Positions 623 through 25,415 of a DNA stretch of 26,003 nt are shown piece by piece (position 1 is the first letter of the stretch; every line of letters starts with the position of its first letter). The translations under genes were made by a program, and so were the position numbers. Origin of the DNA: a virus; the IMG/VR virus record IMGVR_UViG_3300020205_000095, positions 1 through 26,003 of that record, one strand, 5' to 3'. The notes beneath the pieces are model-generated. The model was not told the origin of the DNA. It searched no databases and saw only the letters and a list, made by a program, of their open reading frames with translations.

Positions 623-3600
623 TTATACCTCGCTCAAATATACTGACATGTTGGGTCCACTATTATTTCTAGAATACTCTATATTATATACTACAAACCT
701 ATCTGTGTCAGATGAGATAAGATCCATGTTAGAAGAGTCTTTATAGCTTAATGTCACAATGTCTCCAAGCTGTAATGTTGGTATTGCAAACATGTTAATT
801 CCAATAGATTTTTTAGGTTTCATCAATTTATTAATAATCCAGCCCATTAATGCATTTGCATCATCATCTGTTTGAATGTATAGGCTATCTATAGAAAATT
901 CATTTTTTCCATATATCATTCTACTTTGTCTTATTTCATCATACTTTAATTTTTCTACAAGTGGAGAATAAACTAGTGAACTACCCTTGAATTCTGGATC
1001 TGATAAATTACCACGTTTTTTAAAATAGTCATCAACAGTTAACTCCTGAGTAGTATCTTGAGTAAATGTTATTCCTTGTATTCTTAAAAAATTTCCAGTA
1101 GTTTCATCTAAACTTAATGCTTTATCTGTAGCATTAAATATTAAAAATTCTGCCCCATAAGAATCTGCTTGAAATCCAGAAGTAGTGTAACCCTTAATTC
1201 TATTAAATGTTGGAGACATTTGTGCATAAAGTGCTGGGTATGCACGATCATATCTGATGTCAAAATATGCACACTCTCTCATAATTGACCCAAACTCTTC
1301 AAAATACATATTGTATTTGGGTGGCTGTTGTGCGCTAAGTCCAGATAGATATGTGCTTTGTATAATTCCACTCATTGCGTATTTAGTAAATGACTCATTA
1401 GCATTAACCTTTCCTTCTGAAAAAGCAGAAGATAAAGTTTCACCAACAGTAAACACACTATTTTGTGAATAGTTTTCTGAAAGTGCATAAACATTTTCAA
1501 ACATACACCTTGAAGAACCACGAGTAAATATAGCCATATTGTTATATACTGGAAGTGGATCTGTATCATCTACAATCTTAATTAACTTATTATTGATGTA
1601 TAAAAAGAATCTCCTAGTCTTTCCAATGTCTTGATACTCTACAGATAGGTCGTATACTGTTGGATTTTCCTCAGAAGCCATTCTATATTGTCCAGTAAAT
1701 CTTCCGTCGTCTACTAGAATCTTTGATAGCCCTCCCCATAATTTTACAGGTATTGCTTTACTGCTAGTAGATTCTTTTTTAATTTTATAAAAAACAATAT
1801 TGTTTATTGATTTTTCTGCGTTGCCCTTAGTGTCAATTTTTAAGTATGAATTTATATTATCTTCTGTTAATGCAACAATTTCAAAATAGTATCCATTATT
1901 AGTTTCTGGATTAAGCAAAACAGCCAGTCCGCCAGAACCACCACCAATATTTACATTTTGATCAGTCTGGGTTCCAGAGGTTTGATAATAGGTTGTGCTT
2001 CCAATTGGGGTTTGTGTTCTAGTTTCATTATTTTCAATTTTTCCAACAATACGAATTCTAGTTCCAAAATGTTTATACGCATTGTTAAGTTCTTTATATA
2101 CATAAGAAACAAAGTTTAATGGAGTTTCTGTTGTTTTAAAAGATGGACCATTCATTACTAATGCAGAAGATTGAATAGTTCCGCTTGTTGTGCTTTTTAA
2201 ATTATTAACTGCAGTTTCAGTTAAATAATTTGTTGCCATAAAGTTTTTAATAATGCCATTTCTTGTGGTTTGTCTAGCAAAAGTATTATTTACTCCAGCA
2301 GCGCCTAACGTAGTTGCTGGATACGTAACATCGGAATCCAACTTGGTTGTAAACATATAACTAGATTCCATTTCACATCCACGAACATAATCATTGTTTG
2401 ACCAGTATGGACTGATTCCTGCAGTATGTGCAGAAATTGATGTTCCAAATTGGGCACGACCATGCTCAACGACATCTCCATTTTGCAATCTATTGACTCC
2501 ATCAACAACTTCATAGTATGGAATGGAGTAAATTCTTATCAAACCAGTTGGATATATTTTTCCATTAAACGGTAGTGATGAAAAATACTTTTGATATTCC
2601 TGGTTATCGCTAATCCAAACGTTTCCAGTTCCTGTAATATTAAACTCTGCTGCATCATACCTAATAATTTCTCCATTAGAGTATATGTATCCCTGATACC
2701 TTGTTAGCCAATATACATTTTCTCCAAGATCAATTATATTATTAGTAACAGCATGGTTTACTACTGTTGGTGCTGTGGTAGTAATATTAGAATTTAATGG
2801 CATTGCTCCCAATACATAACTACCCTGCTTTGAAGCAAGTTCATTAATTGTTTTTGTGTTGTCTGTTCCAGATACTTCCCACAATAATGCAGGCTTATAT
2901 ATCCATGTTTTTTCTTGGTCTAGTAAACTTGATTGACGAATTGATCCATACGAACGCTGAATATACCTTGTAGTATAGTTAATTTTACCGTCGTTATATA
3001 TTTTTTTATCTTTAGATGCAATAGAAATAATATTTGGAAGGTTTCCAGATGTTGAATTCTCAATTACACCTGTATCTGACTGCCCATTGTTTCCAGAAAT
3101 AACAAAGTCTGTGCTTCTTTGTTCTTCAGTAGGCATAAGATAATCTTTGCTCATTACGATAAAGTTATTATATTCATCAAAAAACATTGCTGTTTGTGTT
3201 GCTATTGCTAACTGATTTAATACTTCTGCAACATTTTGGTCTGGGGCAACAAAGAAATATGGAATAACTGGATCGGACTCACCAGGAACTCTTCTAAAAA
3301 CATAATTGCTAAATCCAATATAGTCTAATAATGTTGTAATAGCATAACTTAAAGAACTTTGAGTTGTAAGTAATCTTGGAGCAGGCATAGATTCTAGGAA
3401 AAAGAAAAAGTCTCTTAGCTGAATTGACAAAGTGCCAGCAGTTACATCAGCCTGTGGAAATCCTTCGGAGTATAAAGACTTAATGGGAATATGATAGTCA
3501 TATCCGTCTACACCTAAAACAGCTTCATAAAAATTAAACTTTATATTTTTTCTTACATATTTTGAAATAATACTATTAGAGTTCTGATCATTAAAAGCTT

Positions 3601-4934: not shown

Positions 4935-5570
4935 CTAGACCTCTTCCAGAGTTACCGATATATTCCAAAGATCATGATTAGACCCACCACGTTTTGTAAC
5001 GGTATAACTAAAATCTGCAAAGTAAACCTGCATAATTTGATTGTATTGAGCCAAGTGCCCAAAAGCTGCATCATCTTTTCCAAAATTAGAATACTTATCA
5101 TAAGCAAGATAAATCCAAAATGGTCCTGGATGGTTTTCATACCAGTCTAGTAACTCTACTCCACCTGCACCACCATCAGCTGTAAATTCTCCATTGCTAT
5201 TTTTATAGGGGGATACGCCAGAAGCACTGAATGATGGGTCTTGATAATATGATCTTGATGGTAGATTATTCCAAGACAAGTTCATTGTTAGTTTATCTGC
5301 AATATGATAAGACCTCATCCTGCCATTAATAGTTCTTTGACGTTGTTCTATTCTAGTTGGATTAAATTGAAGTTCCCCACGATTATGGTCAGACAGGACT
5401 AGGAACTGGTCTATTAGGGCCTCATCAGTCTCTGCTGGCACCTCTGCGCCTATTTCAAAGCCTGTTGGTAGATAAACTCCATTTACTAGGGTTCCAGCAT
5501 TCTCAGACCACAGAAGGGCTTGTGGTCGCTGGTATCTACGTCTGCCTGCTAAATATGCTGCGGTAGCCAT
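4935..5570 (-). CDS. Distal-tail-like minor tail protein (211 aa)
   Basis: The ATG at 5570 shares a base with the stop of the tape-measure gene (TAATG), and GAGGA lies just upstream, so it is translated as part of the tail operon. The protein begins with a basic segment (GRRRYQRPQALLW), has a mixed middle, a Gly/Ser/Asn-rich loop (~115-137), and ends in a beta-rich portion (HPGPFWIYLAYDKY, IMQVYFADFSYTVTKRGG, LWNISVTLEEV). Length, beta content and position between the tape measure and the large hub protein fit the Dit (distal tail) slot of siphophages, where a ring of this protein joins the tail tube to the tip. I recognise the general type from actinophage minor tail proteins but cannot confirm a Dit fold by eye. 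Confidence 0.75.
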   Translation of the reverse strand: MATAAYLAGRRRYQRPQALLWSENAGTLVNGVYLPTGFEIGAEVPAETDEALIDQFLVLSDHNRGELQFNPTRIEQRQRTINGRMRSYHIADKLTMNLSWNNLPSRSYYQDPSFSASGVSPYKNSNGEFTADGGAGGVELLDWYENHPGPFWIYLAYDKYSNFGKDDAAFGHLAQYNQIMQVYFADFSYTVTKRGGSNHDLWNISVTLEEV

Positions 5571-8500
5571 TATCTTTGTCCTCTGATTCTTTGTGCATCA
5601 ATATATTTAATCTGACTTATTACTGCATTTGCAATATCGCCAGAACTTGCATTTGATTGTGGAACTGTAATTCCAATATTATAATTATACATGGCGCTGG
5701 AGTTATCTACCATGGTATTTGAACCAGAAGACCCAGCACTATAAGAAGTTGATTTTGGCATTTTAAAACTTGGATTATTCATTGCTGATAGCATCGGGCC
5801 ATACTTATCTACAGACGATTTACTCATTACAAACTCTCCTGGAGTTAGCATAGCTGGAACTGTATCTGTTCCTCTTGATAGTCCACCTTTTGCAAAATAT
5901 TTAGGAACTAAGCCACCTTTTGCAAAACCCATTCCAGCCCCAGGACGGAAAATAGCATCTTCATATTTAGTTAAATCTCTAATCTCTTGGTCTGTTAATC
6001 CTAGATCATCCGTTTTTGTTACAAATCCACCACCACCGCCACCACCACTACTTTGAGCAGCAGATACGGCAGCCCATGCAGCAGCAATTGCTAAGACAGC
6101 TGCTTCTTGATCTTTAAGAATACCATTAATATTGGTCAAAGTTCCAGGAAGTGCATCTACTATTAGTTTTTGCTTATCCCATTCAATTCTTTGATTATCA
6201 ATTACATCAAGTTGGTCTTGAAGTTTTTTCTCTAGAGCTTCAAGTTTTGTTTTTTGTATTTCTAATTTACTATTCTGTGTGTCAAGGTCTAAATTTCTTT
6301 TTTGTTCAATAGCATATATTTGCTGGCTGATTTGGTATTGACGTTCCTCAATTTGAGCTCTTGTCATTCCATTAACCAATAAGGCATCTAGTTCTTTCTT
6401 TCTTGCAGCTTCTAAAGATCCAGTCTGTTGCCCTAAAGCATTTTGTGCTGCAGATGCTCTCATATCTTGTGCTGCTGCTGCAGCTGCAGATATATCTCCC
6501 TGAGACAATGCATCTGCCAAAGTTAGTTGTTGTTTTTGTTGACCTGCTATTTCAGAATTAATCTCTGATATTTGTTGTAATGCACTTGCTTGCAAATCAT
6601 ACTTATCATTAATTGCCTGTGACTGATGATCTATAATTGCAAGGTTATTAGATAATACAGTTGATTCATCATTTAATGGCTTTAGTGCAGTTTCTGCATC
6701 TTTATTTATTTTATCAATTTCAGCTTGAACTTCATCAACAGCAGTCTTTGCAGCTTTAATTAATGGGTCAAGGGCTTGACGTGCCTGTGCTTCTTGAATT
6801 CTAAAATGTTCCATAGCTTGATCAAATGCTTGCCCAAATGCTTCTATACTCTTTTTAACATCTGCAAATGGATCTATAACACGAGCAAGATTTTCTTGTG
6901 ATTTAATATTTTTATCTATTATAGCTTTTAATTCTTTATAGGATAAAGTAGCATATTTTGGATTGTTAATAAGATTTACCATATCAACATCATTTATTAA
7001 TTCTTCTGCTTCTTTAGTATCATACCCAGATTTAGTTAAACGCTCATAGGCTTGTTTTTTTGCATTAATATCTTTTGTCTGTTGTTTTAAATTAGATAAT
7101 GCTGTAGCTGCACCCAATGCTTTTTCTACTTCATTTGCTTTACCTTGAGCTTTTTGAAGTTGTTTCACTAGCTTTGCCCATTCACCTGTTCCAGCTTTAA
7201 TTTTTCCTGCTGCAACATCTGCTGCAATTAAAGAATCTGACGCCATGTCTGAAGCAGTTTTTGCATCTACCCCAGCTGCCCTTAATGTGTTGTAAGCTTT
7301 AGCTTGCTCTCTAATTGACTTAATTTTTTCTTGCATATTTTTTAAAGCACTTGGTTTATCTTCTCCACTACCTATTTCTTGAAAAGCAGCTGCAGTTGCT
7401 TTATTTAATTCTGCTATTATTTTTCCAGCTTCTGCTATTTTATCTTTAAATTTTGTCAATATCTCTTCTGCGCTTTTTGCTTCTCTTGCAGAAACATTAT
7501 CTTTTTCTACAGTTTCCATTGCTCTTATAACTTGTGCAGTTACTGCAACACCAGCAGCTTTTGCTTGAAGAATAAGTAATTTTGAAGATATTGTTTCAAT
7601 TCCTTCTGCAGATTTTTGAAGATCTTTTGGAAGACTTTTCATTAATTCTGCCATCAAAAACATTCCTGCTGGTGCAGGCATTCCAGAAATACTTTCTTTA
7701 ATTTTATCAAAAGCCATAGCAAATTGTTCTGAAGATATTGTTGAATTCTGTAGTTGCCCAGATAATCCATTAATCATTCCTACTATAGATTTTGATGCTG
7801 TGCTTAAGCTTGTTTTAAGATTATCTGACATTGTTTCAATTGTATTACCGTAAAATTGATCTATATAGGTAGAATATCCAGTAGCAAAATTCTTAGATAA
7901 ATTTTTAGCAAGTGCATCTGTTGTTTTTTCTAATGTTTTCATTCCATCTTTGCTAGCCAAATCTATACTTTTAACATCAAATTTTATACTAGTCTTGCCA
8001 GCTTCTTCTTGAAGGGCATTTATAATAGTTTGAACTTGATCTGCTGCATATCCTTTACCCTTAAGTTGAATTGCCAAGGAATTAAATATAAGCTCTGCTT
8101 GTTTAGATGTAGCTGCTTTTAATGAAGTAATATCTTTTGCAAAAGTTTTTTGAAATCCTTCATCAGCCTTTAACTGTTCAAGTTGTGTTCTTTGAGCAGA
8201 ACTTGTTGCAAGCTGTGGAGTAGCAGATTCAAACTTTGTTTTTGTTTCAACAACACCAAAAAATGATCCAAGCATTTTTAGCTTTTCTGCAGAAAGTGTT
8301 GCAGCATCACCAAGACCTTCAATAGCAAGTCTTTCTTTTTCTCTTTGATTATTAATATACTTAATAATAGATACGCCTGCTGTTATAACGCCTATTGCTA
8401 TTCCTATAGGGCCAAGGAATTTTGCTATCATCCCACCAAATCTAAGCAGGTTGGGAAGCAACTTTTTAATACCACCAGAAAATAATGTTGTATTTAATGC

Positions 8501-11500
8501 CATCTTTTTCGTTGCAACATTTTCAAGAAGAAGACCAGCATTTTTTGCTCTATTGGTTGCAAGTTGTAGCATATTACTTTGTGTTAATAAACCCGTTACT
8601 GCTTGTAGTGCAAACATTGCTCCAGTTACTTTAGATATTGTTCCAGACATTTCTCCAAGTTTACCGCCAGACATTGAGGCAATTCCTGAAAGTGATGAAA
8701 CTGCAAAAGATGCACCCATTAAAGATCTATCAAGTTTTTGCATTCTTTGTGTTGCAGTTTCTGTTGCTCTTGCATTTTCAATTACTTTTTGTGTAGTGTC
8801 TGGACCCATTGGCATATTTGCAGCAACAGTGCTCATTGGAAGTGATGGATCACCTTGTGGTCTTGATGCTACTCTTCTAACTCTTTTACCTGGAATTCTT
8901 GTAGGGGCACCCTCTGGGCTTGATGCTACTCTTCTACGATTTTGTGTTCCTCTAACTGCTGCGGTAGATAGGCTAGATCCTGATTTTTCTACATCATCTT
9001 GACGATTGGCCATTCCAACTTCAAGGCCTCTAGCAATATCTTCTCCAATTGGAATTGTTCTTTTAGATGGTGATCTAGTTCCTGCTGCTCTAGCTGTTGC
9101 TAAAACTGCTTCATCTGTAATCTCTGTGGCCATTGCTCCAACACCGCCACGTTTTCTTTTACTTGAACTCGATCCAGGAGTAACACGACCACTGGTTCTT
9201 GGAACACCTCCTTCAGTTGTAACAATTTTGCTTAGTGATGGATCTGCTTTTTGAGCATCTAACATTAACTGTGCTTGTTCTTTTGTTAAATTATACCTAA
9301 TCTCGGTTATTGTATTTTCTGCAATATCAAGAACTGATTTTAATTCTGCTCCAAATGATCCTAAACCTTCTCTTGCATTTCTTTCTATAATTTCAAAATC
9401 AGCATCTGTTATCTTATAACCCTGAGCGCTCTTGTCAATTAATTCTTGAACTCCAGTTTGAATTGATTTGTCATATGCTTCAATTTGTGGTAAAAGTTTT
9501 TGAAAATCACCTCCGCCAATCTCTATTGATTTCATCCATTTTCTTGGACCACGTTCTACAAAGTCATCCATAAATTTTTGAATTTCAAATCCACCATGAG
9601 CCATGGCATTATTAATATCACCACGTATATCATATCCAAGTCCACCCTTTGAAGTAACTTGTGCTTCGGGAACTATTCTTGCTAAATCTTCAAGTCTTTT
9701 TAAGGTTGTTGGATCAATAATTCCATTCCTACTTGAAAACATTGCCGATGCTGATGTTTGTGTTCCACCTTGACCCACATGGCCAAACTGTCCTCTTCCC
9801 TGCTGTCCAATATTTGCAGTATACTGTGATCTAAATTCTCTTAAATTTTCTTTTAAGTTTTTCATTGTAACTGACATTTCAGAAGAAATAGTTGTAACAA
9901 GTTCTTTAAAAGGCTCCACTAACTCTGGTCCCATTCTTGATAATTCTGCATCAAGGAATTTTTTTACCTCTAAAGAACTACTTTGTGGCGATGCCATTGA
10001 AGCAATTCTTGAAGAAAAATCTTCGTCCCCAGAATTAAGTCCTCTTTTATATCCTGGTATATTTCCAGCAATCATGCCTTCAATTAGTGGAGCATACTTC
10101 TTTGCCATAGCTGCTGGGATAACTGCTTCTCCAGGAGTAAGCATTGCTGGAACTGTATCGCCCTTACCACTTCCAGGAACACTTATAACTCCATTAGCAT
10201 AACCTTTTCTTGCACCAGGAAGCATCATACCTGGGTTATTAAGCATAAACTTTTGACCAGCAACAGTTGCTTGTTGATATGCCGCAATTAATTGTGCAAC
10301 AGCACTTGCTTCTGCAGTAAATTGTTGTGTTAGTCTGGCATGTGATTGATCTAATGAGTGTGCTGCAGCAGCTGCCTCAATCTGCTCCATTGTCAAATAT
10401 TGAGTTTGCTCTCCAAGTATTTGAGATTGTCCAGTTAATCTTAAATATCCATTGCGAAGAATCATTGCTCCCTTAACTGCGTTAGCAAGTAAGTTAGCAA
10501 GCAAACCAAAAGTCATTAAGAATATAGGACCAAGACCAGCAATACCAAGAGTTATTAATGTAACAACTTTTTTAGTTCCACTAGAAAGATTTCCAAATTT
10601 CTCTAATATGTTTCCAACAAATTCAAGTATTGGGGTTACCGCTTCTAGGAATGCTTGACCCACTGGTATTAATGCAACCTTTAGATCTTCAACTGTTTTC
10701 TTAAACTTATTCATTGATGACTCAGCAGTCATCCCTAATTCTTTTTCAGATAATGAAGATAGTTCTTCTACTGAAGAATTTGCTAATCCAAGAACACGAG
10801 CAGCTTGATTTCCATCTTTTGCTACGTTTGCAAATAGTGTTGATAGACGTGCAAATTGGAATTTACCAAACATTTGCTCAATTGCTTGTGCTCTATTTAA
10901 TGGATCTAGTTGATTGAGTGCTGTTGCAAATTCTATTACTGTTGCCTTAAGGTTTCCTCTATTTTTAGTAACAATATCAGTTGCATTTATGCCAAACTGC
11001 TTAAGCATAGCTGATGCTCTACCTGTTGGATTAATAAGGGCAGCTAGACCAGACTTTAGTGCGTTAGCTCCTTCTGATGCATTGATGCCACCTTCTTTCA
11101 TTGCTGCAATAAAGAATGTTAAATCTTTTACATCTCCACCAAGCTGTTGAATTACTGGGGCTACTTTTGGAATGGCGGTTGTAATATCATCTAGAGATAC
11201 TACTGTTTGGTTTTCTACTGCGTTAAGAAAGTTAATTGAATCTGCAAGCTTATCACTTGACATTCCAAAAGCATTTTGAAGTGCAATAGTTGTTTCAAGT
11301 GCTTTCTGGCTATCAATCTGTCCAAGAACAGATAGTCTTGTTGCCTCTGTTGTTTGACGTTGCAGATCTAATCCTTGAAAACCTGCTGCTGCTGCTTCTG
11401 CAGCTAAACCTACAGTTTGTGATACGGCAATACCATACTTAGTAAATTGTCTTCCAAGCTCTGTAATATTATCTAGGGCTACTTGTGTTTCTTCTTGTGG

Positions 11501-12193
11501 TGTAAATAAATCTCCATATACCTTTTTAAATTTAAGCGCTTGGGCTTCCATTTCCATAAATGTTTTTGTTGCTGCACTGCCAACAATAGATAGTGGTATT
11601 GTAAAACCAACCATAAGTTGGCGACCTGCCCACTGTGTATTTTTACCAAAGTTAAGAAGATTAGTTGATCCTTGTTTCATTAATTGATTAAATAAAGCTT
11701 GTTTTTGTGCAGCTATGGCGACTTTAGTTCCATAGTCATTCATGTTTAGACTAGTTGGAGTAACTGCCAATGCCTGCATTGCACCGTTTGTATCACGGCC
11801 TAATTTTATATATTGTGTCTGAAGTCTTTTGACACGCTCTTCAGCAACCTTACCGATAGTATCAAATTCTGATTTAAATAATCTACCAAATGTTTTTGTA
11901 GAAGCTCCAGCATAGCGGAAGTATTCACGCATTGAAAACTTATTACTCTCAAGAGAAGCGGTAAAAGATTCTGCCGATGTTCTAACAGTGCGAAGCTCTG
12001 CAGAAAAAGCACCAATGGCATTTACGCTATTAAGTAAATTCTTCTGCAGAGACTTCTGTGCTATTGCAGCTGATTCGCTGCTTTTTGAAATAGATGTGTG
12101 AAACTGAGATATTTGTCTCTGTAATGACTTGAGTTGTGCTAATGCTGCAGACGTATCAATATTTACGCCAATATTAGCATTAACATCAGCCAT
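5570..12193 (-). CDS. Tail tape measure protein (2207 aa)
   Basis: Sets tail length and fills the tube lumen before DNA ejection. Residues ~200-480 carry the TP901-type tape-measure core (MEMEAQALKFKKVYGDLF, GLAAEAAAAGFQGLDLQRQT, AMKEGGINASEGANALKSG). Hydrophobic stretches lie near ~541-575, ~1155-1200 and ~1245-1280, as expected for segments that insert into the host membrane. A basic, Ser/Arg/Gly-rich low-complexity linker spans ~985-1120 and includes a twice-repeated RRVAS motif. A long coiled coil occupies ~1795-2015, followed by a glycine run. The motif DTVPAMLTPGE occurs at ~679-689 and again at ~2109-2119. No lysozyme or peptidase motif was recognised. The ATG has AAAAGG eight bases upstream and follows the short chaperone by 28 bases. 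At the usual ~1.5 angstrom per residue the tail would be about 330 nm, an inference. Confidence 0.95.
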   Translation of the reverse strand: MADVNANIGVNIDTSAALAQLKSLQRQISQFHTSISKSSESAAIAQKSLQKNLLNSVNAIGAFSAELRTVRTSAESFTASLESNKFSMREYFRYAGASTKTFGRLFKSEFDTIGKVAEERVKRLQTQYIKLGRDTNGAMQALAVTPTSLNMNDYGTKVAIAAQKQALFNQLMKQGSTNLLNFGKNTQWAGRQLMVGFTIPLSIVGSAATKTFMEMEAQALKFKKVYGDLFTPQEETQVALDNITELGRQFTKYGIAVSQTVGLAAEAAAAGFQGLDLQRQTTEATRLSVLGQIDSQKALETTIALQNAFGMSSDKLADSINFLNAVENQTVVSLDDITTAIPKVAPVIQQLGGDVKDLTFFIAAMKEGGINASEGANALKSGLAALINPTGRASAMLKQFGINATDIVTKNRGNLKATVIEFATALNQLDPLNRAQAIEQMFGKFQFARLSTLFANVAKDGNQAARVLGLANSSVEELSSLSEKELGMTAESSMNKFKKTVEDLKVALIPVGQAFLEAVTPILEFVGNILEKFGNLSSGTKKVVTLITLGIAGLGPIFLMTFGLLANLLANAVKGAMILRNGYLRLTGQSQILGEQTQYLTMEQIEAAAAAHSLDQSHARLTQQFTAEASAVAQLIAAYQQATVAGQKFMLNNPGMMLPGARKGYANGVISVPGSGKGDTVPAMLTPGEAVIPAAMAKKYAPLIEGMIAGNIPGYKRGLNSGDEDFSSRIASMASPQSSSLEVKKFLDAELSRMGPELVEPFKELVTTISSEMSVTMKNLKENLREFRSQYTANIGQQGRGQFGHVGQGGTQTSASAMFSSRNGIIDPTTLKRLEDLARIVPEAQVTSKGGLGYDIRGDINNAMAHGGFEIQKFMDDFVERGPRKWMKSIEIGGGDFQKLLPQIEAYDKSIQTGVQELIDKSAQGYKITDADFEIIERNAREGLGSFGAELKSVLDIAENTITEIRYNLTKEQAQLMLDAQKADPSLSKIVTTEGGVPRTSGRVTPGSSSSKRKRGGVGAMATEITDEAVLATARAAGTRSPSKRTIPIGEDIARGLEVGMANRQDDVEKSGSSLSTAAVRGTQNRRRVASSPEGAPTRIPGKRVRRVASRPQGDPSLPMSTVAANMPMGPDTTQKVIENARATETATQRMQKLDRSLMGASFAVSSLSGIASMSGGKLGEMSGTISKVTGAMFALQAVTGLLTQSNMLQLATNRAKNAGLLLENVATKKMALNTTLFSGGIKKLLPNLLRFGGMIAKFLGPIGIAIGVITAGVSIIKYINNQREKERLAIEGLGDAATLSAEKLKMLGSFFGVVETKTKFESATPQLATSSAQRTQLEQLKADEGFQKTFAKDITSLKAATSKQAELIFNSLAIQLKGKGYAADQVQTIINALQEEAGKTSIKFDVKSIDLASKDGMKTLEKTTDALAKNLSKNFATGYSTYIDQFYGNTIETMSDNLKTSLSTASKSIVGMINGLSGQLQNSTISSEQFAMAFDKIKESISGMPAPAGMFLMAELMKSLPKDLQKSAEGIETISSKLLILQAKAAGVAVTAQVIRAMETVEKDNVSAREAKSAEEILTKFKDKIAEAGKIIAELNKATAAAFQEIGSGEDKPSALKNMQEKIKSIREQAKAYNTLRAAGVDAKTASDMASDSLIAADVAAGKIKAGTGEWAKLVKQLQKAQGKANEVEKALGAATALSNLKQQTKDINAKKQAYERLTKSGYDTKEAEELINDVDMVNLINNPKYATLSYKELKAIIDKNIKSQENLARVIDPFADVKKSIEAFGQAFDQAMEHFRIQEAQARQALDPLIKAAKTAVDEVQAEIDKINKDAETALKPLNDESTVLSNNLAIIDHQSQAINDKYDLQASALQQISEINSEIAGQQKQQLTLADALSQGDISAAAAAAQDMRASAAQNALGQQTGSLEAARKKELDALLVNGMTRAQIEERQYQISQQIYAIEQKRNLDLDTQNSKLEIQKTKLEALEKKLQDQLDVIDNQRIEWDKQKLIVDALPGTLTNINGILKDQEAAVLAIAAAWAAVSAAQSSGGGGGGGFVTKTDDLGLTDQEIRDLTKYEDAIFRPGAGMGFAKGGLVPKYFAKGGLSRGTDTVPAMLTPGEFVMSKSSVDKYGPMLSAMNNPSFKMPKSTSYSAGSSGSNTMVDNSSAMYNYNIGITVPQSNASSGDIANAVISQIKYIDAQRIRGQR

Positions 12194-12221
12194 CTATCAC
12201 ACCTTTTCTTTTATATAATTA

Positions 12222-12539
12222 TTATGCGTTAAGAACGTCTGTGACAGATGACAAGTTAATGCCTGATGCTGCCTCAACGATCTTATACACAGTTGGTAAA
12301 TCTAAAAGATCTTCCAACTTCTGAATGTCTCCAGCCAGTTCTGGCTTGTATTGCTCCATAGCAATTTGAACACATTCTATAAGCAGAGTCATTGATTTCT
12401 CATTGTCCTCCGCAACCTTTGCCACCCCTTCAAACTTCTTCATAAACGGACGAAGAAGTGATATCTTTAGTGGGCGAACGGTTATCTTTGTTCCATCAAT
12501 GAGAGTGACTTGTTCAGCCTCATGTGTGGTTGTCGCCAT
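12222..12539 (-). CDS. Tail assembly chaperone, short form (105 aa)
   Basis: Small acidic helical protein directly upstream of the tape measure, the slot of lambda gpG-type chaperones, which coat the tape measure and recruit tail-tube subunits. It aligns end to end with the first ~100 residues of the upstream 231-aa protein: both start MATT and share PLKI, LR-FM--FE, ECV-I-M-QY-P and a DL-T-Y-I--A-GI ending. It therefore represents the short (G-like) product, and only 28 bases separate its stop from the tape measure, leaving no room for a frameshifted extension. AGGAGG lies five bases before the ATG, and an extended -10 precedes it. Its G+C content is visibly higher than that of the long paralogue, in line with high expression. 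Function is from family position; the paralogy is seen directly. Confidence 0.85.
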   Translation of the reverse strand: MATTTHEAEQVTLIDGTKITVRPLKISLLRPFMKKFEGVAKVAEDNEKSMTLLIECVQIAMEQYKPELAGDIQKLEDLLDLPTVYKIVEAASGINLSSVTDVLNA

Positions 12540-12563
12540 TGTTTCCTCCTATAGGTTAAGTCA

Positions 12564-12572
12564 ATTATAGCA
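12564..12572 (-). promoter_or_regulatory. Extended -10 promoter for the short tail chaperone
   Basis: Minus strand reads TGCTATAAT, a perfect extended -10. A start site ~7 bases downstream (about 12557) gives an 18-base leader containing AGGAGG. No convincing -35 at 17 bases. It would add transcription of the short chaperone and tape measure beyond read-through from the long chaperone gene. Confidence 0.6.
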
Positions 12573-12580
12573 TAAAAGCA

Positions 12581-13276
12581 CTATTTTGTTAGATCTTCGT
12601 AATCAAGACCCATGTTGATACCAAAGCCTGCTTTTTGTGCCTTTGGTCCTTGGAAAGATAATATATCATTAGAGTCTGAAGTTTGTCCACCACTAAATAC
12701 TCTTGCTTTTAAATCTTCCCACTCTTTCTGGCCCTTTGATTCTCCAGACTGAGCATCTAAATCTACTCCCTGAATAGCAGCCAAAAACTTTTTTTCTGTA
12801 TAGTCTAACTCTCTACTTACTTCTATTGTAGCCATTAACTCTGGCATAGATAATGATTTTTCTAATTCTTGATAGTCTTTCCAGATCCCCAGCAAAAATA
12901 CTTCTGATTCTAATTTTGCTAAATCTAAAGTTTCCCAAGTTACCCCACTTTTTTCTGCCTGATCTTTAACTGGCTCTTCAGACTTTTTATTAATTTTGAT
13001 TCCAGCAGCCACGTCCAATATTATATACATGGTTGCTAAATCAATATTGTCTTGAACAGTAAATATACTATTTGATATTTGTGGATAATATTGCTTCATG
13101 CATATTCTTACACATTCTAGCAAAATATCAATTGCTTCATCATCGTTACTTGTATTTTTTATATCTTCAAATGCTACCATAAATTCACGAAGATACTTAA
13201 TCTTTAATGGTATTATTTCTAATTCTGTATTATCAAATAATAAAATATTTTGACTATTATATATTGTAGTTGCCAT
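12581..13276 (-). CDS. Tail assembly chaperone, long form (231 aa)
   Basis: The N-terminal ~100 residues are paralogous to the 105-aa protein encoded next. The remaining ~130 residues form a second domain with ELEKSLSMPELMATIEVSRE and FLAAIQGVDLD, typical of the T-part of actinophage tail assembly chaperones. The protein is thus equivalent to a GT fusion but is encoded in one uninterrupted frame rather than made by ribosomal slippage. No Shine-Dalgarno precedes the ATG; instead a weak extended -10 (TGGTAGAAT) lies nine bases upstream, just below a strong terminator, so low-level and possibly leaderless expression is expected. Its G+C is low (31 of 120 bases in 13021-13140). It presumably bridges the tape measure and tail-tube subunits during assembly; that role is family knowledge. 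Confidence 0.85.
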   Translation of the reverse strand: MATTIYNSQNILLFDNTELEIIPLKIKYLREFMVAFEDIKNTSNDDEAIDILLECVRICMKQYYPQISNSIFTVQDNIDLATMYIILDVAAGIKINKKSEEPVKDQAEKSGVTWETLDLAKLESEVFLLGIWKDYQELEKSLSMPELMATIEVSRELDYTEKKFLAAIQGVDLDAQSGESKGQKEWEDLKARVFSGGQTSDSNDILSFQGPKAQKAGFGINMGLDYEDLTK

Positions 13277-13285
13277 AGAAATTCA

Positions 13286-13294
13286 ATTCTACCA
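13286..13294 (-). promoter_or_regulatory. Weak extended -10 for the long tail chaperone, predicted leaderless
   Basis: Minus strand reads TGGTAGAAT, one mismatch from TATAAT, with the ATG at 13276 nine bases beyond it. Transcription starting seven bases past the -10 would leave a leader of about three bases. It lies just after the terminator that ends the major tail protein gene. Confidence 0.45.
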
Positions 13295-13305
13295 TAAAAC
13301 AACAA

Positions 13306-13329
13306 AGCCCACATCCGAAGACGTGGGCT
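13306..13329 (-). terminator. Rho-independent terminator after the major tail protein gene
   Basis: On the minus strand AGCCCACGTC and GATGTGGGCT pair as a 10-bp stem (one G-U) closed by a UUCG tetraloop, followed by TTTGTTGTTTTA. It begins 19 bases after the stop of the major tail protein gene and insulates that highly expressed gene from the chaperones. Confidence 0.9.
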
Positions 13330-13348: not shown

Positions 13349-13987
13349 TTATGATAGAAGATCTCCGAATGTGCGATCTACGATTTTACCGTATGATCCT
13401 GAAGTATCCTCTGGTAGCAAACGGAATGAAACTTCAAACATTGAAGCTTCGTCACGCTTTGCTGAAACTGTTACGTTTTCAATTGACAAAGCACGGTATG
13501 CTGTGTAGACACGCTCCACGAATGGAGAATCTACGCAATCACCTGTTCCAGGTCCTATTGCAACAATTCCACGCTCTACTGGACATTCACCGATATCTCC
13601 TGCAGATAAGTTCAAAGACCTACCTGTGTGAGTTGCGACGTTTCCAGTCAATTCAGTATCGCTAAATGCTAGAGCCAAGAGAAGGTTCTCAAGGGTAGCT
13701 TCAGCAAAAGCAGTTGCAAGATTAACTTGCATACCTTGCTTGTAAAGCTTTGCAACGTCAAGAATTTGGTCAACTTGAACTTCACCGAAGTCTGGTTGGA
13801 ACTGCATTTCTAGACCGTTCATGGTATAACCTACGTTAGTATATGCTGCATCATTTGAAAGTGTCTCTCGGAATGATACCTCAGTGCTAAAAGTCTCCAA
13901 TGTATTTGGAGCTAGGGTTGTGTCTGCAACGAAAAGTGCTGCTGCACCAACGATAATGTTGGACGACGTTCCACGACTATATGCCAT
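13349..13987 (-). CDS. Major tail (tube) protein (212 aa)
   Basis: Forms the stacked rings of the tail tube. Its size (212 aa), beta-rich composition, and position after the tail terminator gene and before two tail chaperones and the tape measure fit a siphophage major tail protein. Typical features include MNGLEMQFQPDFGEVQVDQ near residues 56-75, a helical LENLLLALAF at ~98-107, and a C-terminal FEVSFRLLPEDTSG followed by a short GKIVDRTFGDLL tail. A good Shine-Dalgarno (AGAGGTG) sits upstream of the ATG, an extended -10 gives it a ~55-base leader, and a UUCG-hairpin terminator follows, all signs of strong independent expression. Codons look richer in G/C than in neighbouring connector genes. 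No Ig-like decoration domain is visible at the C-terminus. Confidence 0.88.
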   Translation of the reverse strand: MAYSRGTSSNIIVGAAALFVADTTLAPNTLETFSTEVSFRETLSNDAAYTNVGYTMNGLEMQFQPDFGEVQVDQILDVAKLYKQGMQVNLATAFAEATLENLLLALAFSDTELTGNVATHTGRSLNLSAGDIGECPVERGIVAIGPGTGDCVDSPFVERVYTAYRALSIENVTVSAKRDEASMFEVSFRLLPEDTSGSYGKIVDRTFGDLLS

Positions 13988-16777: not shown

Positions 16778-17137
16778 TTATTTACCGTAGTATGCGGATA
16801 CCTCTTCAGGTGGTGCAATTCTAACCAACCTGTGTGTTAACCACTTTTCCGATGCCTCCTTTGAGACTATATTGTAACCTACCTTTAAAGCACCTAAATT
16901 ATCCATATGTAGGTTTCTTTCTGAATATAGGGCTACCTTATTAATTAAAGTTTTTGTTTTTTCTACTTCTTCTACTTCTTCTATTTTTTCTTTTTGCTTT
17001 GGTGGAATCCAGCTAGCTAAAATTTCTAAAATTTCAAGTTTAGTCTTTGCATCAAACAATTCAATATTATTTTTTTTGGCATATGCCTTTAATGCCATTA
17101 CGGTCTTTGTTGATAACTCTTCTATTGTTAGACTCAT
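16778..17137 (-). CDS. Small neck-region protein with HeH/SAP-like helix pair (119 aa)
   Basis: First gene of the connector cluster after the capsid gene and its terminator. The first ~45 residues contain LSTKTVMALKAYAKKNNIEL and KTKLEILEILASW, a helix-extended loop-helix pattern like the HeH/SAP families that bind DNA or DNA ends. A Glu/Lys-rich linker (~49-60) follows, and the C-terminal half has LGALKVGYNIVSKEASEKWL then HRLVRIAPPEEVSAYYG, a conserved-looking block I know from small phage genes between capsid and connector. GGAG precedes the ATG, and an extended -10 lies ~23 bases upstream. The role is unknown; a capsid- or connector-associated DNA contact is only a suggestion. Confidence 0.75.
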   Translation of the reverse strand: MSLTIEELSTKTVMALKAYAKKNNIELFDAKTKLEILEILASWIPPKQKEKIEEVEEVEKTKTLINKVALYSERNLHMDNLGALKVGYNIVSKEASEKWLTHRLVRIAPPEEVSAYYGK

Positions 17138-17154
17138 AATTCTCCAGTGCTCAT
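17136..17154 (-). CDS. Possible six-codon leader peptide (MSTGEL)
   Basis: ATG at 17154 opens six codons (MSTGEL) and ends with a TGA that overlaps the ATG of the 119-aa gene. The ATG is five bases beyond a TGGTATAAT element, almost exactly where transcription should start, so it could be read leaderless and hand ribosomes to the next gene. Very short; may be chance. Confidence 0.25.
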
Positions 17155-17159
17155 TTGTA

Positions 17160-17168
17160 ATTATACCA
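17160..17168 (-). promoter_or_regulatory. Extended -10 promoter for the connector cluster
   Basis: Minus strand reads TGGTATAAT, 13 bases downstream of the hairpin of the capsid terminator. Start expected near 17153-17154. It would drive the five connector genes down to 14062. No -35 recognisable; the upstream 20 bases are the terminator hairpin and its U-tract. Confidence 0.6.
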
Positions 17169-17180
17169 GAAAAGAATAAA

Positions 17181-17204
17181 GCGGGTAGTTTTTACGCTAC
17201 CCGC
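17181..17204 (-). terminator. Rho-independent terminator after the major capsid gene
   Basis: Minus strand GCGGGTAG and CTACCCGC pair perfectly over 8 bp around an 8-base A-rich loop, followed by TTTATTCTTTTC. It lies 22 bases after the capsid stop codon and separates the highly expressed capsid gene from the connector cluster. Confidence 0.88.
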
Positions 17205-17226
17205 CATATTACTTATTGGTTAAATC

Positions 17227-18967: not shown

Positions 18968-19726
18968 AGGACTAACCTCCTTTGTAATCTTAATTGTGCT
19001 AATGCCTTTGGCACTATCAACTAAGAACTTTATCATATTTACTTTTTCGTTATCATTCTTTTCAACAAACCCTATATTTTGCATTTGCTTTTGTGTTACT
19101 GGATGCATTGCTATTTCGGAATCTGAAACCATAACCATTCCTGTTTCTGCATCATAAAAAATATTTTCTGTCTCAACTTTTGAAAGCATTCCGTCAATCA
19201 CATTATGACCATCTTTCTTCTCTATAGAAACAATATTGGCAAATTGATTTGCTGGAGAATCTACCAAAGATAATTCAAAAAGATCATAATCTTTAATTAC
19301 ACGGATTGTCTTATCCATATCTTCATTGTAGGCATCATCCCAAGACTTAATGTTTCCACCAATTGAGAAACCTGTGTATGTTCCGTCTAATACTTTTTCC
19401 CAGGCATTTTGGGCACCCTTTGAAACGTATGCAGATACATAAACTCCGCTATAAAACTTCTTATCATTTGGATCAAAGTATCTATCTTCTTTAAATGAGA
19501 CTATCTTTCCAACTGCTGATGGTTGGTGCATTTCTCTTAGATTCCCACGGAAATTCTTAAATGCTTCAATACTTGATTCGGTTGTTACAATGTCACCTTG
19601 CTTATCAATATTGTCAAGGGTAGCAAAACCTGACACCATACGGCGTTCAATATCTACTTTTCCAATAGGCATTGAAAGACGAACATTGTCGCCATCAGTT
19701 ACCCAATGTCCTTTATTTATATTCAT
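18407..19726 (-). CDS. HK97-family prohead protease fused to scaffold domain (439 aa)
   Basis: Residues ~15-165 are an S78-type prohead protease: RMVSGFATLDNIDKQGDIV, catalytic His in LREMHQPSAVGK (H67) and catalytic Ser in LFELSLVDSPANQ (S153), matching the family's His...E-S-L-V pattern. It cleaves scaffold and capsid during maturation. After a ~90-residue linker the protein becomes acidic and Ala/Val/Glu-rich (~254-330), then a coiled coil (~330-415, with DTVSGEVKAVSGEVNNVKG) and ends KSLWGGRFLKSTDLFN; this looks like a scaffold. An internal ATG at codon 254 has a perfect ribosome binding site, so free scaffold is probably made too. The gene's own start has no Shine-Dalgarno but an extended -10 nine bases upstream, predicting a near-leaderless mRNA. 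Lies between portal and major capsid. Confidence 0.9.
   Translation of the reverse strand: MNINKGHWVTDGDNVRLSMPIGKVDIERRMVSGFATLDNIDKQGDIVTTESSIEAFKNFRGNLREMHQPSAVGKIVSFKEDRYFDPNDKKFYSGVYVSAYVSKGAQNAWEKVLDGTYTGFSIGGNIKSWDDAYNEDMDKTIRVIKDYDLFELSLVDSPANQFANIVSIEKKDGHNVIDGMLSKVETENIFYDAETGMVMVSDSEIAMHPVTQKQMQNIGFVEKNDNEKVNMIKFLVDSAKGISTIKITKEVSPMTEATGAVLDTVVEDVQVAPEAQPVVAQEAIAVVEEAAAVEELAVAKSDDGSADSSIEKSEEGEKVADVNDVTKSDEVIVEAVTEIKNSLTNAFGDLAATVKSLHDQIAALSKSIDTVSGEVKAVSGEVNNVKGVFNEFGKRVDAVEQDTAFRKSGDLGEIVQFEPTKAQKSLWGGRFLKSTDLFN
18975..18983 (-). promoter_or_regulatory. Internal Shine-Dalgarno for the nested scaffold
   Basis: Minus strand AAAGGAGGT inside the protease/scaffold gene, followed eight bases after GGAGG by an in-frame ATG. 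Nothing in the encoded protein (TKEVSP) demands this exact nine-base string, so it is likely kept for translation initiation. Confidence 0.75.
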
Positions 19727-19735
19727 AGCTTATCT

Positions 19736-19744
19736 ATTATACCA
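19736..19744 (-). promoter_or_regulatory. Extended -10 for the protease/scaffold gene, near-leaderless
   Basis: Minus strand reads TGGTATAAT, with the ATG at 19726 nine bases beyond the -10, giving a predicted leader of about three bases. No Shine-Dalgarno occupies the gap. It lies between the portal stop and the protease start. Confidence 0.6.
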
Positions 19745-24700: not shown

Positions 24701-25397
24701 CTTGATCTGAAGAAATACCATAAGCTGATGCTGGAATTACTTTGTCTGTAGTAATTATAGCTATGTCAGATGGAAATACTGATGGAGTTACACCAAGAGA
24801 TATAGTATTAAATTCTTCTGACCACTGTCCTAAAGTAATTCCATTTAAATAAAATTCATAGTCTGTTGAGCTAGCTCCACCAGTTAAATATGTTATTTTA
24901 ATTACTGCACGTAGGTTTGTATATTCATTTGGAGTTTCAAATGTTTTTGAAATAAATGCCCAATTTTGAAATAGGGTTGTTTCAAATGTTTCTAGTTTTT
25001 GAACAATTTGGGAAGTGGTTGTATCTGTATATTCATATCCAATAGATATAGATTTAATATATGCGCTATTTGAATAAAAATATGAACCAACACAAAATGT
25101 AGCAAGCTCTGAATTTAGATCAGAAAAATTAACAAGATCGGAACTGATAGAAGTTACACTTCCAGTAGCACCAACTGGAACAGTTCCCCTTAGCCTTGTT
25201 GTTATGCTATCTGGAAATGGTTCATTATCTATAGTTGATACTAGTGATGTTCCACCTGTAGTAGTCCATTGAGTTTGTATATTCCGCTGAGTTTCTGAAA
25301 TAAGGCTAATATAGTCAGACGCATCATCTAATGCCCAAAGCACCAATGGGTGCTCTGAATATATCTTTTCTGCATATAGATTTGATGGGTTAGACAT
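21747..25397 (-). CDS. Large LamG/jellyroll-containing minor structural protein (1216 aa)
   Basis: Structural protein of a type common in actinobacterial phages. The N-terminus has the HPLVLWALDD motif typical of these proteins. Residues ~270-412 form a LamG/concanavalin-like jellyroll (EYTVEFWARIN, FVGEWVRPMLIQIRIIN, SATMILNGEEVISLTID, IDCVAIYSYQVP). A second beta-rich unit lies at ~500-680 (VRSVYAVFNTTD, NSLKLYVGGDEGEENTFTGK) and a third at ~1020-1130 (KIKFYMVADSEKGNRARIY, VKEWGVLGIAFSNALNLDLY). The C-terminus (WQGVLVIGTSSLYGVNPDAV, YKTYLGTNKIIIDDSE) is also a conserved block. Such domains bind glycans, so host-surface attachment is likely. It is remote from the tail-tip genes, next to ribonucleotide reductase and upstream of the portal, so virion location (tail fibre or capsid fibre) is open. 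An extended -10 lies nine bases before the ATG. Confidence 0.85.
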   Translation of the reverse strand: MSNPSNLYAEKIYSEHPLVLWALDDASDYISLISETQRNIQTQWTTTGGTSLVSTIDNEPFPDSITTRLRGTVPVGATGSVTSISSDLVNFSDLNSELATFCVGSYFYSNSAYIKSISIGYEYTDTTTSQIVQKLETFETTLFQNWAFISKTFETPNEYTNLRAVIKITYLTGGASSTDYEFYLNGITLGQWSEEFNTISLGVTPSVFPSDIAIITTDKVIPASAYGISSDQGYYLVNNNALLAKNTSIPLVYGASGVTKLIPNTSGKPSLIVPGKGFLNEVGRYKEYTVEFWARINSDTVEPKRIFGPIVGSNGLYVESGFLTLVLGDSFASHFVGEWVRPMLIQIRIINNSATMILNGEEVISLTIDTANMELPSEIVNGDSQDWLGFYAYENVSPIEIDCVAIYSYQVPITVAKRRWVYGQGVLSPEGINSAYGGTSAFIDYPFADYTANYNYPGFAQWQQGAFDNLVTTSTVLTTPEYSLPEISTGSKTLNELYLDNQEIQEVASGLTVPNKFITFRPNNTWNSKQCYFNFPQFNLLKDQVRSVYAVFNTTDIGPESGTIQPQTLLKIYNSINGDFFIIRQEEDLIKYVLSSNGVEELLYTTANLQSGQLFSVGINLETITNKFGENLSSFFGTQNSLKLYVGGDEGEENTFTGKIYSVGLSTASNAAEIENYFDESGFVLFDDLSESGTTAETSTELINHTASYTLLPTEAYDKFFLDIGVSGYWQDYLPLSYFAQFVTNDVGNEFYDLDFLQFNIGYPSPDKLLESESIVENWTYSDLKNEYKNPVQKTYEQLGNILYTGWADYEDMLQKSAKYYEYDTTSASIRSYLTFQYVADGANALQDSFTITETPKSNKIIDMDEHAQWANTKFEIIDNTLIYPTKTVDFNDLAVVFHLEFNLRNTLTKPIKLSRLEFASQALSENSFNPIGTRFGLNLFPYKRSGIYYDYKSKNPFSIYKGSTPYLYLDRKSGIQVRGEFDKQISRGIAVPINQELASNYRVSAAQLWMRYDEENFPLVPTELFEINYKNDKIKFYMVADSEKGNRARIYAKSQNTGLDFNGLSYFWNGSLVREPVITVKEWGVLGIAFSNALNLDLYLGGINLTGPMLFNNVGYYQANNLQQIQSTLVRPWLKVKTDGITNFNWQYWINNFTWQGVLVIGTSSLYGVNPDAVYKTYLGTNKIIIDDSEGMIFDADKIKIYTDTSWQTSVKVPV

Positions 25398-25406
25398 GAT
25401 AACCCT

Positions 25407-25415
25407 ATTATAGCA
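25407..25415 (-). promoter_or_regulatory. Extended -10 for the LamG structural gene, near-leaderless
   Basis: Minus strand reads TGCTATAAT, perfect consensus, with the ATG at 25397 nine bases beyond. A start at the seventh base gives a three-base leader. It falls in the 27-base gap after the ribonucleotide reductase stop, so late structural expression can begin here independently of the nucleotide-metabolism gene. Confidence 0.65.

Follow-up and report, generated by a model that had tools for sequence, protein, structure and literature searches.

The window, which is the whole 26,003-nt stretch of DNA that was analysed, carried two adjacent putative tail assembly chaperone genes on its minus strand. 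The relevant features of the window are as follows.

13349-13987, minus strand: major tail protein gene (context), matched to phrog_2175 (protein with Ig domain) and weakly to phrog_885 (major tail protein).
13306-13329, minus strand: terminator-like hairpin with a U-tract, in the gap that separates GT from the major tail protein gene (RNA fold z -5.9).
13286-13294, minus strand: TGGTAGAAT, the extended -10 box of GT, separated from the ATG by 9 nt.
12581-13276, minus strand: long tail assembly chaperone GT, 231 aa, a single uninterrupted gene matched to phrog_10504 (residues 1-100) and phrog_10474 (residues 131-192); residues 1-96 form the G domain and about 109-231 the T part.
12564-12592, minus strand: predicted short-gene promoter, in which 17 nt separate CTAACA from TATAAT with its extended TG.
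12564-12572, minus strand: extended -10 box TGCTATAAT of the short gene.
12545-12550, minus strand: Shine-Dalgarno sequence AGGAGG of the short gene.
12222-12539, minus strand: short tail assembly chaperone G, 105 aa, a paralogue of GT residues 1-97 by BLASTP, hhalign and phrog_10504.
5570-12193, minus strand: tape measure protein gene, 2207 aa (context), matched to phrog_10030 (E 2e-97).

Read along the minus strand, the order was major tail protein, hairpin, GT, short G, a gap of 28 nt (12194-12221) and the ATG of the tape measure gene. The chaperone genes of relatives also lie between the major tail protein, which is annotated as such in their records, and the tape measure protein. An earlier note on this DNA had described two open reading frames of these sizes and positions, with 28 bases between the short one and the tape measure gene, and had proposed from a set of shared motifs that the two genes were paralogous. 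The open reading frame positions, the exact gap and the motifs all agreed with our results. Comparison of the pair by BLASTP revealed 38 identities over 97 residues (39%, E 2e-25), and a profile-profile comparison with hhalign gave a probability of 99.9% (E 4e-31), which contradicts the possibility that the two proteins are unrelated. GT therefore contains the whole short G domain with the T part added to it.

In the tblastn search of cultured phages, Streptomyces phage genes annotated as tail assembly chaperones were found to match. In addition, phrog_1932 (tail assembly chaperone) was reached by 19 of 31 members at E values up to 0.1, with a best value of 0.0013. Pfam contained no model for GT or short G, and the PDB sequence search returned nothing relevant for the pair. 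The structure models of both chaperones were of low confidence. The G model (pLDDT 57) was superposed on the HK97 chaperone (2ob9) with a Z-score of 5.1 and an rmsd of 3.9 over 84 aligned residues, a score that unrelated entries equalled. The GT model matched viral proteins named tail assembly chaperone, one of them at E 4.7e-4; a Foldseek search of this model against the PDB, followed by a second look with VIA-align, gave noise only. The predicted folds thus weakly favour the same identity. As part of the overall reading given below, we consider it quite likely that a long-tailed phage uses the pair as its tail assembly chaperones, G being the short form and GT the long one, and their products may act as lambda gpG and gpGT do.

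In lambda and its relatives, the gpG and gpGT chaperones are made through a programmed -1 frameshift (PMC5009743). The window resembles that system in that a short and a long form share an N-terminal domain, the long form bears the T part, and both are encoded downstream of the major tail protein gene and upstream of the tape measure gene. In contrast to lambda, where one start and slippage are used, each form in the window has a gene and a start of its own, and the slip site is absent. Lambda-type pairs are further characterised by a short form that greatly outnumbers the long one and by contacts with the tape measure and the tail tube protein.

The cultured relatives found by tblastn were Streptomyces phages of the Stanwilliamsviridae and, more weakly, Rhodococcus phages. 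In the cultured and aquatic relatives that were inspected, a single G gene was followed by a T open reading frame in the -1 frame, and several of their records annotate a joined G-T product. The T part was scored in the -1 frame in 80 of 80 distinct sequences, a set that includes one locus (L111) later seen to be a truncated locus of the window type, and it usually stood behind CCCAAAC, CCCAAAT or AAATTTG. When translated through the slip, the products of the relatives comprised 214-220 aa and aligned end to end with the GT of the window. The codons at the slip encode Asp-Pro-Asn in most relatives and are replaced in the window clade, where GT is one open frame and no slip site is present at the homologous position.

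Several details of these relatives were also observed. In the Boydwoodruffvirinae (L003, L006, L007, L170, L171 and L174, at about 3290-3345), G and T overlap without a classical heptamer, and CCCGGAA stands where the others have CCCAAAC or CCCAAAT, which is a possible non-canonical slip site. In the Rhodococcus phages (L167, L168 and L169), a large insertion interrupts the domain of the G protein near its middle, and the match to their T part persists. The annotation of phage Faust (L005, 3591-3650) reduces the T part to a 60-nt fragment, and many sister records list it as a separate hypothetical protein; both look like missed frameshift joins.

We considered whether frameshifting persists in hidden form, with the paralogue being an extra subunit only. 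Slippage in GT would then give a second short form, or slippage in short G would give another extension. In 28 of 100 loci, codon 126 of GT indeed carries TTTTTTG or TTTTTTA, and in 14 of 100, TTTAAAT or TTTAAAC lies close to the 3' end of G. However, no heptamer was conserved throughout the clade or at the old slip position, and in the commonest classes the shifted frames of the short gene extended at most about 13 codons past the stop and held no T sequence. We consider hidden frameshifting very improbable.

The survey of loci drew on five viral-contig scans and the cultured phages. It revealed 225 intact loci in which a fused GT is followed by G (the window type, with 143 distinct core sequences), and 159 loci of the frameshift type (106 distinct core sequences), although some loci are overlapping views of one contig. 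With so many intact examples, the arrangement is not a product of chance. A comparison of relatives with one slippery gene and with two genes, which the earlier note had suggested, therefore separated the loci into these two types, and no intermediates were found among the 225 and 159. Neither a fused GT without G nor a frameshifting G with a second G was encountered in the survey except at contig ends. Apparent G-only, GT-only and T-G loci, all of which lay at contig ends, were rejected as exceptions, and L111, which had been taken for the frameshift type, was reassigned as a contig-end truncation of the window type. No window-type locus was present among the cultured phages inspected.

In the tape measure tree rooted with the Rhodococcus phages, the window type formed one clade (100/100, with L111 counted in it). 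This clade was sister to the aquatic frameshifters (98/96), and the Streptomyces frameshifters lay outside. The direction of the switch is well supported because the outside groups all frameshift, and it is not certain because the root rests on long branches. In the G-domain tree, the short copies grouped together (99/95), as did the long copies (97/95), and the two groups were sisters (100/99). Recombination can also produce adjacent paralogues, and the clade has a long stem branch, as might be seen if the second G had been acquired from another phage and not duplicated in place. Yet the short and long G domains were closest to each other (100/99) against all frameshifters and the Rhodococcus outgroup, and we regard acquisition as very improbable. 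One duplication and one loss of frameshifting would explain all of these sequence relationships, and this single origin is strongly supported. The idea in the earlier note that duplication stands in place of frameshifting was thus supported, as the relatives slip by -1, the window clade lacks the slip site, and the trees indicate one event.

For short G, and for GT in pairs of equal length, the median dN/dS was about 0.10; neither gene is decaying, and both copies are under purifying selection. The value of 1.38 obtained for a C-terminal slice of GT was discarded as an artefact of end-slicing genes of unequal length, and that of the N-terminal slice was also left unused. In a diverse set, mean pairwise identity was 80% for short G, 64% for the GT G domain and 73% for the GT T part.

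The far higher conservation of short G than of the GT G domain (80% and 64%), together with the 39% identity of the two G domains in the window, could mean that their functions have split and that they are no longer interchangeable in one co-assembly. They might contact separate regions of the tape measure or work at distinct stages. However, the core residues and the predicted secondary structure are common to both G domains, and a lower constraint on the minor subunit could cover most of the difference. A division of functions is a possibility that we judge rather unlikely.

The expression signals differed consistently between the two genes. The hairpin upstream of GT was kept in 51 of 52 diverse loci. 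The -10 box of GT was non-consensus, being TAGAAT or TAAAAT in most of the 133 distinct loci, although a few carry TATAAT for GT too. It lay 5-9 nt before the start in 122 of these 133. The mean Shine-Dalgarno pairing energy of GT was -2.35 kcal/mol over the 133 loci, the GT gene of the window having no such sequence, and the start codon was ATG in 131 of 133. A -10 box places the transcription start about 7 nt downstream. With the box 9 nt from the ATG, transcription of GT is expected to start on the AUG or only a few nt from it, and a leaderless mRNA (5' UTR under 9 nt) is therefore predicted. The -10 spacing, the lack of a Shine-Dalgarno sequence and the AUG all agree with this prediction.

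In a sublineage of eight loci (L126, L130, L137, L140, L142, L159, L278 and L284), a distance of 14-20 nt separates the GT -10 box from the start, and a G-rich run that resembles a Shine-Dalgarno sequence precedes GT. GT seems to have moved to a short leader in this sublineage.

The short gene was preceded by the consensus TGNTATAAT in 130 of 133 distinct loci, with a leader mostly of 23-31 nt after the -10 box and a mean anti-Shine-Dalgarno pairing energy of -10.0 kcal/mol over 133 loci. The single G gene of the frameshifters has a similar cassette, consisting of an extended -10 box, a 22-30 nt leader and -10.2 kcal/mol, and it starts with TTG in 80 of 107 cases. Loci in which the start of short G seemed weak or had no -10 box were checked, and those of L279, L280 and L318 proved to be mis-picked start codons. 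L288 and L309 have TGTTATAAT as the -10 box of short G, and in L126 this box overlaps the stop region of GT. The fourfold-site control yielded no usable sites. Extended -10 motifs numbered 14 in the window against 10.4 by chance, which is not above chance, and only their position and conservation are therefore informative.

These results confirmed what the earlier note had read from the window, namely a long gene with no Shine-Dalgarno sequence, a weak -10 box and a strong terminator above it, and a short gene with AGGAGG (12545-12550) and a perfect -10 box (12564-12572). The 9-nt spacing that predicts a leaderless GT mRNA is an addition to that note. Its suggestion of differential initiation gained ground, as the unequal signals are conserved in about 130 distinct loci. 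The conserved signals may set the ratio that is otherwise set by frameshifting.

Taken as a whole, the best explanation is that an ancestral frameshift gene was duplicated once and that the ratio of the products now comes from unequal starts; we give it a probability of about 80%. The ancestor would have made G and GT from one gene by -1 programmed frameshifting, as in the sister lineages, and its G part would have been duplicated once in the ancestor of the clade. The upstream copy is joined in frame to T and no longer has the slip site, and the downstream copy is G alone, with an ancestral-like cassette (extended -10, a leader of about 25 nt and AGGAGG). Transcription from the major tail protein gene would stop at the hairpin, so that read-through is blocked. 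The non-consensus promoter would then give a leaderless GT mRNA, and the consensus promoter a well-initiated G mRNA. Many G and few GT would thus be set by unequal starts of transcription and translation and not by slippage. Both the transcription starts and the G/GT protein ratio are predictions from the DNA.

We lean slightly towards a two-promoter design, in which rare GT would come from a leaderless mRNA and abundant G from a Shine-Dalgarno mRNA, with control wholly removed from recoding. In mycobacteria, leaderless mRNAs can match Shine-Dalgarno mRNAs in translation (PMC8485053). The GT start therefore need not be weak, and the contrast between the promoters may count for more than the leader. 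The -10 box of GT departs only mildly from consensus, and transcripts that run on from the GT promoter would include G as well. If the two-promoter design is true, a slippage-fixed ratio on a single message is dispensable for tail building.

Few recoding events in tailed phages are as widely conserved as the G/GT frameshift. A whole clade appears to have dropped it once, with duplication and unequal starts in its place, and its close relatives have kept it. This offers a natural before-and-after comparison of whether recoding is kept for a per-message ratio or merely for compactness. The conserved contrast between leaderless and Shine-Dalgarno starts within one gene pair is also a ready test of translation ratios in actinobacteria.

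We compared the arrangement with other known systems. The Stanwilliamsviridae (Coruscant, Circinus, Faust, Patelgo and Yaboi) have homologous G and T parts, the same gene order, and a terminator and extended -10 box upstream of G. They differ in that T follows a single G gene in the -1 frame and the start is usually TTG or GTG with a Shine-Dalgarno sequence. T4-like phages are reported to encode the short form in one gene and the long fusion in another, with no frameshift (Vladimirov, Gautam and Davidson 2022, Virology 566:9-15, as described in PMC10885494). By that description the arrangement is alike, whereas the phage group is another one, and in the present case sister lineages still frameshift and unequal start signals are conserved. 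Because the sister lineages of the window clade still frameshift, the switch can be placed on a tree. No T4-like records were present among the tblastn matches. As far as the description of T4-like phages goes, the window clade seems to have reached this arrangement independently, as a second case in a different kind of phage. In Cluster EA Microbacterium phages, the chaperone open reading frames are apparently expressed separately with no evident frameshift, but the second one is not described as a fusion with its own G copy (PMC7302621).

Genes similar to whiB, which are typical of actinobacteria and their phages, were carried by 7 of the 8 long contigs from the clade. Together with the cultured relatives, they suggest actinobacterial hosts, and the window-type clade is a large uncultured family of phages that probably infect such hosts. 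No relative was found in GTDB genomes or plasmids, and a host or prophage was therefore not identified directly. Leaderless mRNAs are common in actinobacteria; in Streptomyces they account for 21% of primary starts, and AUG is preferred on them (PMC4895711). The ATG of GT in 131 of 133 loci is consistent with this preference.

Similar starts were observed elsewhere in the window. On the minus strand, at 25397-25415 and 19726-19744, a 1216-aa gene and a 439-aa protease-like gene respectively start exactly 9 nt after TGCTATAAT or TGGTATAAT, and because of this spacing from an extended -10 box they look leaderless. Among the ATGs that lie 9 nt after such boxes on the coding strand, 3 of 6 are gene starts. 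A second node of a terminator and an extended -10 box was found at 17137-17205 on the minus strand, between the capsid gene and a 119-aa gene, with the hairpin at 17180-17205 and TGGTATAAT at 17160-17168.
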